From NCBI RefSeq assembly GCF_014199395.1, contig NZ_JACIJM010000006.1, forward strand, positions 124,001 through 188,000: 64,000 bases of DNA, written 5' to 3'. The notes under the pieces were generated by a model. The model worked only from the letters and a program-made list of their open reading frames with translations, did not search any database and was not told where the DNA came from. This DNA comes from Yoonia ponticola (GTDB taxonomy: Bacteria; Pseudomonadota; Alphaproteobacteria; Rhodobacterales; Rhodobacteraceae). The position numbers and the translations under genes were made by a program. Of this stretch, positions 2 through 52,542 are shown in pieces. How positions within the stretch are numbered: position 1 is the stretch's first letter; each line of letters starts with the position of its first letter.

Positions 2-1972
2 GACCAAATCCGACTGCTGAAACAATTGATCCGTGCCGATGACATCGACGAAAAACGCTGGCCGCCGCGGATGCTGTCAGGGATCATTGATAACTGGAAA
101 AACAAGGCGCTGACGCCTGACAATATTCCGGTCAGCGATAGCGGTGTGTTCGACCACAAAGGTGTCGCGCTATACGCGGCATACCAGCAGCGGTTGAAGG
201 ACCTGAATGCCGTCGATTTTGGCGACATTCTGCTGCATATGGTCGTGATTTTTCAGCAAAATCAGGATATTCTAGATCAGTATCAACGTTGGTTCCGCTA
301 CATCCTTGTGGACGAATATCAAGATACCAACGTCGCCCAATATTTGTGGCTACGGCTGCTCGCGGGTAAGCACAAAAACATCTGTTGTGTTGGCGATGAC
401 GACCAATCGATCTATGGCTGGCGCGGTGCTGAGGTCGGCAATATCCTGCGGTTTGAAAAGGATTTTCCGGGGGCTGTCGTGGTCCGGCTTGAGCAAAATT
501 ACCGCTCGACGCCGCATATTCTGGCGGCCGCATCCGGCGTGATTTCTGGGAACAAAGGGCGGCTTGGCAAGGAGCTTTGGACCGCTGAAGAAGACGGCGA
601 AAAGGTTCGGTTGATCGGCCATTGGGACGGCGAAGAAGAGGCGCGTTGGATCGGTGAAGAGATCGAAGCGTTGCAGCGCGGCACCCGTGGCCTCGACAAA
701 ATTAGCCCTGATCATATGGCGATTTTGGTCCGTGCATCGCATCAAATGCGGGCCTTCGAGGACCGGTTCTTAACCATTGGTCTGCCGTATCGCGTCATCG
801 GCGGGCCGCGATTCTATGAACGTCTCGAAATCCGTGATGCGATGGGATATTTCCGTCTTGCCGTGTCGCAAGACGATGATCTGGCGTTCGAGCGGATCGT
901 GAATACCCCCAAGCGCGGGCTGGGTGATAAGGCTGTGCAAACGATCCAAATGGCCGCGCGTGATAATGGTGTATCGCTGTTGGAAGGCGCGCGGATTTGT
1001 TGTCAGGAAAAACGCCTTGGCGGTAAGGGGCTGAAAGAGCTGACTATTCTCGTTGATGGGTTGGATCGCTGGCACTCTCAAGTCATGAATGAATCCGACA
1101 CGCATGTTGAGCTTGCCGAGATGATTCTCGACGAATCCGGCTACACTGGATTTTGGCAAAACGACAAAACGCCCGAGGCTCCGGGGCGGTTGGAAAACCT
1201 CAAAGAACTGGTCAAGGCACTTGAGAATTTTGAGAACCTGCAAGGGTTTCTCGAACACGTCAGCCTAATTATGGATAACGAGACCGAAGAGCAGGGCGAG
1301 AAGGTCAGCATTATGACGCTTCACGCGGCTAAGGGTTTGGAATTCCCCGCTGTTTTCTTGCCCGGTTGGGAAGACGGATTGTTCCCATCGCAGCGGTCGA
1401 TGGACGAAAGTGGTGTCAAAGGCCTCGAGGAAGAGCGTCGTTTGGCGTACGTCGGCATCACACGCGCAGAGCGGATTTGCACGATTTCCTTTGCCGCGAA
1501 CCGTCGCGTTTATGGCCAATGGCAGTCCGCGATGCCGTCGCGTTTCATTGACGAATTGCCCGAAGATCATGTCGAAGTGTTAACCCCTCCCGGTCTATAT
1601 GGCGGTGGATTTGGTGCGGCTGGCATGGCGGCAAGCGCGTCACCTGCGGTTCAGGCCGAGATGGGATCGGATTTGCATGGCAAAGCGGCGAATGCCGACG
1701 TTTATAATTCCCCCGGTTGGCGTCGTTTGCAAACGCGTAGCCAGCAACGCGGCATCGCGACACCTGCCGCTGCGAAAAATATCACGATTGATCTCGACGC
1801 CATCAGCACGTTCACGACGGGCGACCGCGTGTTCCATCAGAAATTCGGTTACGGCGAGGTGATGGGGATCGAAGGCGACAAGCTTGAGATCGAATTTGAC
1901 AAGGCCGGATCGAAACATGTTGTCGCGCGGTTTGTGGTGAATGCAGAGCAGGCGGATGATATGCCGTTTTAA
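2..1972 (+). CDS. uvrD: UvrD/PcrA-type DNA helicase (5' end outside window)
   Basis: ATP-driven 3'-5' DNA helicase of superfamily 1A, acting in excision and mismatch repair and at stalled forks. The frame is open to the left edge, so the N-terminus with Walker A is missing; 656 residues are visible. Helicase motifs appear in order: VDEYQDT, GDDDQSIYGWRGA, EQNYRST, TLHAAKGLEF and RRLAYVGITRA. The C-terminus (TGDRVFHQKFGYGEV) matches the small Tudor-like, RNA-polymerase-binding domain of UvrD/PcrA. A TTG at 26 is in frame but internal. The stop overlaps the stop of the convergent LysE gene by three bases. Identity as UvrD/PcrA rather than Rep is inferred from the C-terminal domain. Confidence 0.95.
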   Translation, partial: DQIRLLKQLIRADDIDEKRWPPRMLSGIIDNWKNKALTPDNIPVSDSGVFDHKGVALYAAYQQRLKDLNAVDFGDILLHMVVIFQQNQDILDQYQRWFRYILVDEYQDTNVAQYLWLRLLAGKHKNICCVGDDDQSIYGWRGAEVGNILRFEKDFPGAVVVRLEQNYRSTPHILAAASGVISGNKGRLGKELWTAEEDGEKVRLIGHWDGEEEARWIGEEIEALQRGTRGLDKISPDHMAILVRASHQMRAFEDRFLTIGLPYRVIGGPRFYERLEIRDAMGYFRLAVSQDDDLAFERIVNTPKRGLGDKAVQTIQMAARDNGVSLLEGARICCQEKRLGGKGLKELTILVDGLDRWHSQVMNESDTHVELAEMILDESGYTGFWQNDKTPEAPGRLENLKELVKALENFENLQGFLEHVSLIMDNETEEQGEKVSIMTLHAAKGLEFPAVFLPGWEDGLFPSQRSMDESGVKGLEEERRLAYVGITRAERICTISFAANRRVYGQWQSAMPSRFIDELPEDHVEVLTPPGLYGGGFGAAGMAASASPAVQAEMGSDLHGKAANADVYNSPGWRRLQTRSQQRGIATPAAAKNITIDLDAISTFTTGDRVFHQKFGYGEVMGIEGDKLEIEFDKAGSKHVVARFVVNAEQADDMPF

Positions 1973-2568
1973 TGGGTCAATACGGGATAGAGCGACAATA
2001 TAAGAAGTGCGGCCATCGTGATGTTAAAGATTCGCAAGCTGCGCGGTGTGCTGAGGACGCGGCGCACTTGTACGCCGAGCCATGCCCAGATTGATACCGA
2101 CGGCAAATTTACCACGGCAAAAACCGCAGCAACCGTTAACGCGCCAATTAAAACGCCGTTATCCTGCGGCGCATAGTTGGTGATTGCGGTGATCGCCATG
2201 AACCACGCCTTGGGGTTAACCCATTGAAACGCGGCCGCCTGTAAAAACGTAAATGGCGTACCGGTCACTTTCTTCGCATCGGGCGGCACTGCGTTTGCAA
2301 TTTTCCATGCCAGCCACAGCATATAGACCACGCTGAGCACAGTTAGAATCGTGTTCAAGACCGGATATGTCTCGAATATCCGCAGTAAAATAACGCCAAC
2401 CAGCGTCACCATAAACGCATGGCCTAAAGAAATGCCTAACATATGCGGAATCGTGCGACGTAATCCGAAATTCGCACCAGATGCCATCAGCATCAGGTTG
2501 TTCGGGCCGGGGGTGACGGAACTTACAAATGAAAATGCGACCAGCGCGAACAGGATATCTTGGGTCAT
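1969..2568 (-). CDS. LysE/RhtB-family amino acid exporter
   Basis: Inner-membrane efflux protein of the LysE/RhtB family (199 residues, the normal family length), which exports amino acids or similar small metabolites; the substrate cannot be read from the sequence. The family signature TPGPN lies near residue 20 just after the first hydrophobic segment, and about six hydrophobic segments follow. It starts at ATG 2568. It lies about 50 bp downstream of the terminator of the sRNA array on the same strand, so it probably has its own promoter or depends on readthrough. It converges on the helicase gene with overlapping stop codons. Confidence 0.85.
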   Translation of the reverse strand: MTQDILFALVAFSFVSSVTPGPNNLMLMASGANFGLRRTIPHMLGISLGHAFMVTLVGVILLRIFETYPVLNTILTVLSVVYMLWLAWKIANAVPPDAKKVTGTPFTFLQAAAFQWVNPKAWFMAITAITNYAPQDNGVLIGALTVAAVFAVVNLPSVSIWAWLGVQVRRVLSTPRSLRIFNITMAALLILSLYPVLTH

Positions 2569-2613: not shown

Positions 2614-2915
2614 CATAAAAAAACCGCAGCGCCCGGGAGGAGGTGGGCACTGCGGTTCTCTATATGTGCCCACTACCACGGGAGGAGGTGTGGCGCGGGC
2701 GACGAGAGCGATTTCAACCCGGGAGGAGGTGGGTCTGATCGCTCTTTCTCGGCTCGTCGGGAGGAGGTGACGAGACCGAAACTCTTGTAGAGGTGTCCGG
2801 CGACACCCGGGAGGAGGTGGATGTCGCCGGTCCTTCTGATAACCTGGTCGTTTCTGGGAGGAAGATGACCAGGTCGATCGGATCATTCATTCTGGGAGGA
2901 GTTAAATGATCCGAA
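2614..2915 (-). ncRNA. CcsR/cuckoo-type sRNA array: seven hairpins with CCTCCTCCC loops
   Basis: Seven consecutive stem-loops on the minus strand each expose CCTCCTCCC or a close variant. Plus-strand spans of arms and loop: 2879-2913, 2841-2874, 2797-2830, 2750-2778, 2705-2745, 2668-2700 and 2622-2657. Five loops carry exactly ACCTCCTCCC; the two nearest the DUF1127 gene are degenerate. The stems differ in sequence but keep pairing (for example 9-bp arms at 2879-2887 and 2905-2913), which points to selection on structure. In Rhodobacter sphaeroides four such CcsR RNAs follow a DUF1127 gene, are cut from a common transcript and respond to stress. The same gene order here supports the assignment. 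The loops resemble the 16S anti-Shine-Dalgarno tail. Processing into separate RNAs is inferred. Confidence 0.88.
2617..2657 (-). terminator. Terminator of the sRNA array, also its last hairpin
   Basis: Arms 2622-2629 and 2650-2657 (AACCGCAG/CTGCGGTT) plus GCCC/GGGC close a loop of ACCTCCTCCC. On the minus strand they are followed by seven T residues (plus-strand A run 2617-2623). The last sRNA hairpin therefore doubles as an intrinsic terminator. Confidence 0.88.
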
Positions 2916-2920
2916 TTCTA

Positions 2921-3133
2921 TTATTTCTTTACTGCGTCCAGTGCGATTGATTTAATCATTGAACGGTGAATTCCAAGGTCTGCAAGGTCACGATTTGAAA
3001 GTGACTGCAATTCGTTGAATGTTGTGTTGTACAACTTGCGCTGTGCAATGATGCCGCTAACCTGTGCGAACAGCGCGGACGCGCGTTCTGCGAAAGAGTT
3101 TGTTGCGGTGTGGTTTGCTGTAATAAATGCCAT
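2921..3133 (-). CDS. ccaF1: DUF1127 small protein upstream of the sRNA array (CcaF1-like)
   Basis: A 70-residue DUF1127 protein with the family's C-terminal pattern LADLGIHRSMI. In Rhodobacter the DUF1127 protein encoded ahead of the CcsR RNAs (CcaF1) is an RNA-binding factor that affects sRNA maturation and turnover. The start chosen is ATG at 3133. A longer frame begins further upstream, but its N-terminal part does not look like the family and runs through the leader. The gene ends 8 bp before the first hairpin, so gene and sRNAs very probably share one transcript. The ccaF1 symbol rests on gene order and family, not on alignment. Confidence 0.82.
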   Translation of the reverse strand: MAFITANHTATNSFAERASALFAQVSGIIAQRKLYNTTFNELQSLSNRDLADLGIHRSMIKSIALDAVKK

Positions 3134-3237
3134 CGTCTTCGTCTTTCGTTTGCGTATATCGGCGGGAGGCGCCGTGTTCTGTTGTGTCCTACAATTATGG
3201 TTTTGCTGCAGTTGCACAATGCCCAATGAATCATTGC

Positions 3238-3261
3238 TGCTATGCAGAAATTGCATAAGCA
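3238..3261. repeat. Near-perfect inverted repeat upstream of the DUF1127 gene
   Basis: TGCTATGCA (3238-3246) and TGCATAAGCA (3252-3261) are inverted copies apart from one extra base, separated by 5 bp. It lies about 105 bp before the DUF1127 start and 125 bp before the mrp start, in the divergent promoter region, so it could be an operator for either side. Confidence 0.5.
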
Positions 3262-52075: not shown

Positions 52076-52151
52076 GCTTGGATCTGACACCAAATGGTTT
52101 GCCCCAATTCCCCGTCTTGATCATCACCTGCGCCCACGTTACTTGGGGTTT

Positions 52152-52194
52152 GCGGGACGACCTGCGCTTTCCTTTTTATTCCGGGACGACCCGG
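52152..52194 (+). promoter_or_regulatory. Guanidine-II (mini-ykkC) riboswitch
   Basis: Two small hairpins with identical ACGA loops: GCGGG-ACGA-CCTGC (52152-52165) and CCGGG-ACGA-CCCGG (52181-52194), joined by a 15-nt U-rich linker. This is the defining architecture of the guanidine-II riboswitch, in which the two loops dimerise and bind two guanidinium ions. The Shine-Dalgarno AAGGAGG (52204-52210) follows 9 nt later, so ligand binding probably frees it. The downstream gene is the expected guanidinium exporter. Confidence 0.95.
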
Positions 52195-52218: not shown

Positions 52219-52542
52219 ATGGCTTGGATCCAACTCGTTATCGCCGGATTTTTGGAAATCGTCTGGGCGTACTTCATGAAGAAATCCGCAGGCTTCACGT
52301 TGCTGGTGCCGAGTACCATCACGATGATCACGATGGCTGCCAGTTTTGTATTACTGTCGCTTGCGATGCGGTCGTTGCCGTTGGGCACGGCCTACACGAT
52401 CTGGACGGGTATCGGGGCTGTTGGAGCGTTCGTCGTTGGCGTCGTACTGCTGGGCGAATCCGCATCGCCGCTGCGTATTCTTGCGGCCCTGTTGATCATC
52501 GCGGGCATCGTGTTGATGAAAGTTTCCAGCCCATCCGCCTAA
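52219..52542 (+). CDS. gdx: Guanidinium exporter Gdx (SugE-type SMR protein)
   Basis: Small multidrug resistance-family antiporter (107 residues, four membrane helices) that exports guanidinium in exchange for protons as an antiparallel dimer. E13 in the first helix (IAGFLEIVWAYFMKKS) is the ion-binding glutamate, and YTIWTGIGAVGAF is typical of the Gdx rather than the drug-exporting branch. The riboswitch in its leader makes this assignment firm. A terminator follows. Confidence 0.95.
   Translation: MAWIQLVIAGFLEIVWAYFMKKSAGFTLLVPSTITMITMAASFVLLSLAMRSLPLGTAYTIWTGIGAVGAFVVGVVLLGESASPLRILAALLIIAGIVLMKVSSPSA

Follow-up and report, generated by a model that had tools for sequence, protein, structure and literature searches.

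Positions 2614–3133 of a 64,000-nucleotide stretch of DNA from Yoonia ponticola (the window) comprise a DUF1127 gene and an RNA hairpin array, and this array is of a known kind, namely a cuckoo/CcsR-type anti-Shine-Dalgarno (anti-SD) array. The gene, the seven conserved anti-SD hairpins, the U-run at their end, and a conserved promoter block are all established from the sequence. Our explanation for the locus as a whole, to which we assign a probability of roughly 80%, is that it is a cuckoo/CcsR-type DUF1127–sRNA operon that is activated by a LysR-type regulator and processed to RNAs whose loops pair with Shine-Dalgarno (SD) sequences.

According to this model, a single transcript would start about 50 nt before the gene, and its synthesis would be under the control of a LysR-type activator orthologous to VtlR/LsrB. 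An alternative sigma factor is perhaps involved, by analogy with RpoHI/HII in Rhodobacter sphaeroides. RNase E, with the help of the DUF1127 protein, would cut the transcript into stable RNAs that each comprise one hairpin or several, and the UCCUCCC loops of these RNAs would pair with GGGAGGA-type SD sites and block the translation of many mRNAs under stress. The presence of several loops would provide more copies of one binding site rather than different specificities. The precedent comes from R. sphaeroides, for which co-transcription, maturation by RNase E and CcaF1, and an RpoHI/HII promoter are described (PMC10253847; PMC8625941).

Seven hairpins with a common loop behind a DUF1127 gene

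The DUF1127 gene resides at positions 2921–3133 on the minus strand and encodes a small protein of 70 amino acids that matches PF06568 with 40.7 bits (cut-off 23.3). Judging by this domain and by the array behind the gene, the protein is probably CcaF1-like. A DUF1127 protein match was found in 34 of the 35 other same-genus genomes searched (35 of 36 when the own genome is counted). The match is absent from genome G007, and TCCTCCC is likewise absent from the two DUF1127 loci fetched from that genome. The array is located 3′ of the gene on the same strand, and its downstream neighbor, outside the array, is a LysE-type translocator gene (1969–2568, minus strand; PF01810, 53.1 bits).

By folding the RNA with the motif held unpaired, we obtained seven minus-strand hairpins that span positions 2914–2618, have 12–17 pairs each, and carry UCCUCCC (TCCTCCC in the DNA) in every loop. 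Numbered from the gene outward, and all on the minus strand, these are hairpin 1 (2878–2914, loop AACUCCUCCCAG), hairpin 2 (2841–2875, loop CUUCCUCCC), hairpins 3 (2789–2837), 4 (2747–2781), 5 (2705–2745), and 6 (2666–2703), each with loop CACCUCCUCCC, and hairpin 7 with its U-run (2617–2661, the hairpin itself at 2661–2618). The loop letters read CACCUCCUCCC in five hairpins, ACUCCUCCC in hairpin 1, and CUUCCUCCC in hairpin 2, and the stem sequences differ. The initial annotation of this DNA had proposed that anti-SD hairpins of the CcsR/cuckoo type follow a DUF1127 gene here, and the seven UCCUCCC loops together with the PF06568 gene in front of them bear this out.

When positions 2614–2918 were folded freely, the predicted energy was −141.1 kcal/mol versus a shuffle mean of −87.25 (SD 5; z = −10.77), and 0 of 100 shuffles were as low. 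The sequence CTCCTCCC occurs six times in the 64-kb window, and all six copies reside within the array (shuffle mean 1.08, with 0 of 100 shuffles reaching six); the array's seventh motif copy reads TTCCTCCC. A search with another motif, CTYCCTCCC, yielded one match and was dropped. The hairpins are placed 38–50 nt apart with no alternation in their spacing. Linkers were also checked for likely RNase E sites in the 26 of 34 genus loci that were usable under the pair-span limit, and the linkers proved short (medians of 2.5–8 nt) and revealed no clear break.

Directly after the last anti-SD hairpin comes a run of seven U residues (2623–2617), and hairpin 7 with this U-run is likely an intrinsic terminator, as the initial annotation had also read it. 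Note that a terminator scan missed hairpin 7 because the loop limit of 8 used for the scan is smaller than its loop of 10.

Rfam models reported the array at scores below their thresholds. CcsR1 (RF02791), whose model comprises two stem-loops, gave 33.1, 27.5, and 23.4 bits against a gathering threshold of 65.3, and ar14 (RF02344) gave 56.6 and 56.0 bits against 58.8. Among ten loci scanned with these models (eight from relatives and two own-genome stretches), two reach the CcsR1 threshold (L107, 77.0; L072, 67.2) and one reaches that of ar14 (L101, 60.1). No Rfam family attained its gathering threshold within the array, and a scan of the whole window at this threshold returned a guanidine-II riboswitch only. 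This mini-ykkC element (52151–52194, plus strand, 39.2 bits) is positioned just before a 107-amino-acid ORF (52219–52542) that looks like a small multidrug-resistance-type exporter.

Conservation in the genus and hairpin number in the family

The seven-slot layout behind the gene is present in 34 of the 36 same-genus genomes examined, with the own genome included; the locus of genome G001, which is 83% complete, has two hairpins. UCCUCCC occupies all seven slots in 26 of the 34 loci and has been lost from 10 of the 238 slots, with 2, 5, 2, 1, 0, 0, and 0 losses for hairpins 1 through 7. Losses in the genus are confined to hairpins 1–4, and in the nearest genome (G025) it is hairpin 1 that has lost the motif. 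Because of this shared layout and these per-slot counts, we conclude that seven hairpins are the genus norm and that motif loss favors the 5′ end of the array. The two hairpins nearest the gene had initially been called degenerate, which is true only mildly in the window, where both keep UCCUCCC, although 7 of the 10 losses in the genus do fall on them. Similarly, of the ongoing birth and decay of copies suggested at the outset, decay is observed in the lost slots, hairpin 1 of G025 among them, but birth is not seen in the genus.

Stem conservation was assessed with an alignment of the 34 seven-slot loci, from which G001 was left out. The consensus fold of this alignment has 59 pairs, 35 of which show changes on both sides. 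We counted 48 pairs from hairpins 1, 3, 4, 5, and 7, and 97.8% of their cells are paired versus a shuffled mean of 87.8%, a comparison biased in favor of these pairs, which were selected on that consensus fold; with partners slid by 1–3 columns, pairing falls to 26–40%. Changes on both sides are found in 32 of the 48 pairs and 159 cells (shuffled means 16.0 and 38.9), distributed as 9 of 11 pairs in hairpin 1, 8 of 13 in hairpin 3, 3 of 5 counted pairs in hairpin 4, 6 of 7 counted pairs in hairpin 5, and 6 of 12 in hairpin 7. Hairpins 2 and 6, which align poorly, were kept outside this count; they were folded singly with the motif held open and without a shuffled control, and form with at least 10 enclosing pairs in every motif-bearing locus (29 of 29 for hairpin 2, whose slot holds the motif in 29 of 34 loci, and 34 of 34 for hairpin 6). 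The stems are kept by compensatory change, as predicted by the proposal that they differ in sequence but stay paired; stems lacking such changes among relatives had been named as grounds for rejecting it. Because hairpin number is steady in the genus and the stems covary, the data argue that the whole row is under selection.

A wider comparison covered 156 distinct loci, of which 80 were named records and 76 were the distinct members of 90 loci taken from the best-scoring matches in a family search of 296 genomes. These loci hold 0 hairpins in 2 cases, 2–6 in 50, 7 in 25, 8 in 28, 9–17 in 49, 20 in 1, and 26 in 1, a distribution limited by the choice of loci by protein score, the many Yoonia records, a lenient hairpin criterion (six enclosing pairs), and truncation at 1200 nt. 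By this count, Rhodobacter capsulatus (L142) has eight hairpins. Short and long spacings alternate in 66 of the 137 loci with at least four hairpins, and 64 of these start with the short one, as two-hairpin units would; 71 show no alternation, the window's genus among them. The largest array, with 26 hairpins, belongs to genome G205 (L188, G205:C1:331000–336900, minus strand) and is built largely from repeated three-hairpin units with spacings of 42, 47, and 51, which is a clear case of tandem growth in another genus.

Hairpin number in the family is variable, and the window's seven are not an excess. The initial contrast between four RNAs known from R. sphaeroides and seven here set RNAs against hairpins. 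Two stem-loops make up the R. sphaeroides RNA RS0680a and also the Rfam CcsR1 model, and RNAs of this type in relatives are described with two, three, or four hairpins each (PMC3927594). Because four RNAs of two stem-loops amount to about eight hairpins, seven is no excess over R. sphaeroides.

Proposed loop pairing, candidate targets, and competing explanations

The sequence GGATCACCTCCTTTCT occurs once in the 3.73-Mb genome, where a full-length small subunit rRNA match carries it at the 3′ end, and five of the seven loops share eight letters, CACCUCCU, with this 16S end. The predicted likeness of the loop to the 16S anti-SD end was therefore confirmed. By base-pairing rules, GGGAGGA should be matched better by the loops than by the 16S end UCCUUUC. 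For NfeR1 of Sinorhizobium meliloti, repression of an ntrB reporter is reported, and this repression is lost in a variant with changes in all three anti-SD motifs (PMC10746234). In the own genome, GGGAGG-N3-10-ATG is found 110 times versus 23 in a reversed control, with 3 of the 110 on the strand opposite the array. Because GGGAGG is common before ATG, many mRNAs could be bound.

It is rather unlikely, in our judgment, that the hairpins work mainly in cis, by protecting the 3′ end of the DUF1127 mRNA and ending transcription, and that the loop, instead of seeding pairing with mRNAs, is a signal bound by the DUF1127 protein or by some other RNA-binding protein. Such a role would suit an array that follows the gene in 154 of 156 loci, although the loci themselves were chosen by their DUF1127 gene, and it would suit CcaF1, which is described as an RNA-binding protein taking part in CcsR maturation (PMC10253847). 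However, the match of the loop letters to the 16S anti-SD and the silencing of a target by the same motif in NfeR1 (PMC10746234) speak for pairing with mRNA, and a stabilizer has no obvious need for up to 26 copies of one loop.

The common CACCUCCU would also be expected if the RNAs were decoys that mimic the 16S 3′ end, bind a partner of the anti-SD such as a ribosomal protein or ribosome-binding factor, and tune ribosomes globally. We regard this explanation as distinctly unlikely, given that the best-kept part of the loop is UCCUCCC, whose last CC differs from the 16S UCCUUUC and gives the better fit to GGGAGGA by pairing rules. The repeated units of G205 and the range of 0–26 copies in the family might suggest a selfish or neutral repeat, one that multiplies by tandem copying with no function to preserve it, but this is very improbable in view of the seven slots shared by 34 of 36 genus genomes and the compensatory changes in the stems.

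Candidate targets of RNAs that pair with SD sites, as favored by our model, were sought around the other copies of the motif. The genome has 24 CTCCTCCC sites, 18 of them outside the array, and all 18 were folded. By eye, those that look most like motif-bearing hairpins are two isolated ones that have CTCCTCCC within or at their loop (L047 near 639, C7:15839; L048 near 208, C7:151758), and these are possible single cuckoo-like RNAs. At 5 of the 18 outside sites, GGGAGGAG is followed after 4–13 nt by an ORF of 199 or more amino acids. One such ORF encodes a methanol/ethanol-family PQQ-dependent dehydrogenase (TIGR03075, 759.9 bits; L282, G000:C5:96004–97767), for which a close ortholog (at least 89%) exists in only 7 of the 36 genus genomes, own included. 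GGGAGGA precedes the gene in all seven close orthologs and GGGAGGAG in four of them; two 39% relatives have GGGAGGT. The dehydrogenase may be a direct target of the array, a candidate that is suggestive because CcsR RNAs are reported to modulate C1 metabolism (PMC10253847).

The upstream block, its putative regulator, and known systems

A long conserved block upstream of the DUF1127 gene is common to the genus. In the window, it contains a putative VtlR/LsrB-like operator (3232–3255, minus strand) wherein TGCAATTTCTGCAT, an exact TGCA-N6-GCAT at 3255–3242, overlaps TGCATAGCAGCAATG, a copy of the VtlR motif at 3246–3232 with 3 mismatches in 15 positions. The upstream region of the window accordingly holds a sequence of the kind described for VtlR/LsrB operators (TGCA-N6-GCAT/CAATGCAGCCATGCA). 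A −35-like TTGTGC element (3214–3219, minus strand) comes 12 nt after the operator and is followed by AACTGCAGCA.

We compared 103 distinct upstream regions, from 110 family loci (80 named records and 30 from the family search), with 100 control regions located 600–900 nt upstream. Matches to TGCATGGCTGCATTG with at most three mismatches were found in 101 of the 103 family upstreams versus 0 of 100 controls, and TGCA-N6-GCAT in 94 of 103 versus 0 of 100. Reverse-complemented, the former sequence is the motif that VtlR is reported to bind in Brucella (PMC12595884), and the latter is described as the motif for LsrB in the promoter of NfeR1 (PMC10746234). Both the operator motif and TTGTGC were found in 94 loci, and in 92 of these TTGTGC follows at a distance of 12 or 13 nt; TTGTGC-N3-5-GCAGCA is present in 95 of 103 upstreams versus 0 of 100 controls, and CNCCATNTT is present in 24 of 103 versus 1 of 100. 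A single crude RpoH-like pattern had no match in the 103 upstreams (mean of 0.9 for shuffled sequences). Because the upstreams are related sequences, these counts measure conservation and not independent events.

The same operator-like box is found upstream of arrays with 2, 7, 8, 16, and 26 hairpins. The two upstreams devoid of it (L093 and L146) both belong to two-hairpin arrays, and six of the eight arrays of that size have the box. The window's VtlR-like copy, with its three mismatches, is among the weaker ones. With at most one mismatch allowed, a looser version of the box is found at 10 genomic positions, the window's own included, and with at most two it is found at 100 versus 25 in a reversed control; because it recurs in this manner, the box alone is not specific. 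Among array-less DUF1127 genes, for which five of eight loci were examined, a three-mismatch match was found in the same orientation at two and in the other orientation at one. TGCA-N6-GCAT was also seen upstream of two of these five (L065 and L066, other genes of the genus), which are perhaps under the same regulator.

The S. meliloti record used for comparison, a 3.7-Mb sequence labelled as a plasmid, has a LysR gene beside trxB and then two ar15 (AbcR) RNAs (110.2 and 106.5 bits). We take this LysR gene to be lsrB because lsrB flanks the tandem AbcR1/AbcR2 genes in that species (PMC7143759). When its protein was searched against seven Rhodobacteraceae genomes, including the own genome and R. 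capsulatus, with three from the window's genus, one strong match was obtained in each (231–250 bits, 38–40% identity), and the next best reached at most 133 bits; the R. capsulatus match is located at G354:C6:15229–16086. The reverse search was run with the own LysR protein alone (C3:313393–314247, 39% identity); among the matches listed, its best in the S. meliloti record is the same lsrB gene, making the two proteins best matches in both directions, and in Rhizobium leguminosarum it matches a gene annotated as VtlR. At both own-genome trxB loci above the cut-off, the LysR neighbor seen in S. meliloti is absent, and the match was found elsewhere.

Six loci were scanned for a SorX/SorY-like RNA behind the LysR gene, and SorX exceeds its threshold in four of the six and SorY in none. 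The position of this RNA behind the regulator gene is the position of AbcR in S. meliloti, and TGCA-N6-GCAT occurs behind the LysR gene, on its strand, in six of seven loci, two of which are sisters. On contig C3 of the own genome, SorX scores 51.0 bits (threshold 46.6) behind the LysR gene (L351, 2573–2656), and TGCA-N6-GCAT is found before this RNA at 2498–2511.

VtlR is reported to activate AbcR2 and three DUF1127 genes in Brucella (PMC12595884), and LsrB is reported to activate NfeR1 (PMC10746234). We infer that a VtlR/LsrB-type regulator probably acts on the window's DUF1127-array operon. Furthermore, we think it reasonably probable that operons combining a DUF1127 gene with anti-SD RNAs are controlled by a LysR regulator of this type throughout Rhodobacteraceae. 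A single ancient stress circuit of Alphaproteobacteria would then unite the AbcR/NfeR1/DUF1127 regulon of Rhizobiales with the CcaF1/CcsR RNAs, and also the SorX/SorY-like RNAs, of Rhodobacterales, and the number of hairpins (2 to 26) would determine how strong its output is. In the literature searched, mostly without subscription papers, we found no link between LsrB/VtlR and CcsR/CcaF1; in the available text of PMC10746234 and PMC7143759, LsrB stands beside "cuckoo RNA" as a cited title only, and in that of PMC12501420 LsrB appears in a reference title only. The LsrB–NfeR1 link is already in print for Rhizobiales, and what would be new is the operator and regulator link for a CcsR/CcaF1-type operon. 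If the promoter result is true, a regulator can be named for the DUF1127-cuckoo operons of Rhodobacterales, and what sets hairpin number becomes testable because arrays of 2 to 26 hairpins share the operator-like box.

Among known systems, the window's locus resembles CcsR1–4/ccaF1 of R. sphaeroides (the "CIN1 locus" or cuckoo RNAs), which are described as a DUF1127 gene with same-strand CCUCCUCCC-loop hairpins and a terminator at the end (PMC10253847). Here too, several CCUCCUCCC-type loops are found behind a DUF1127 gene on its strand, with stems that are variable but paired and a conserved loop. Unlike R. sphaeroides CcsR, known here by its description and its Rfam model and composed of two-hairpin units, the window has seven hairpins without alternation. 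The array also shares CCUCCUCCC loops with ar14/NfeR1/SmelA075 of Rhizobiales, of which NfeR1 has three hairpins and an LsrB-activated promoter with TGCA-N6-GCAT, but it differs from ar14/NfeR1 as described, a three-hairpin sRNA with its own promoter (PMC10746234). Finally, although the VtlR/LsrB regulon (DUF1127 genes, AbcR, and NfeR1) is described for Rhizobiales and the window's box is an operator predicted from sequence, the locus resembles this regulon in having an operator-like box upstream and an ortholog of the regulator in the genome.
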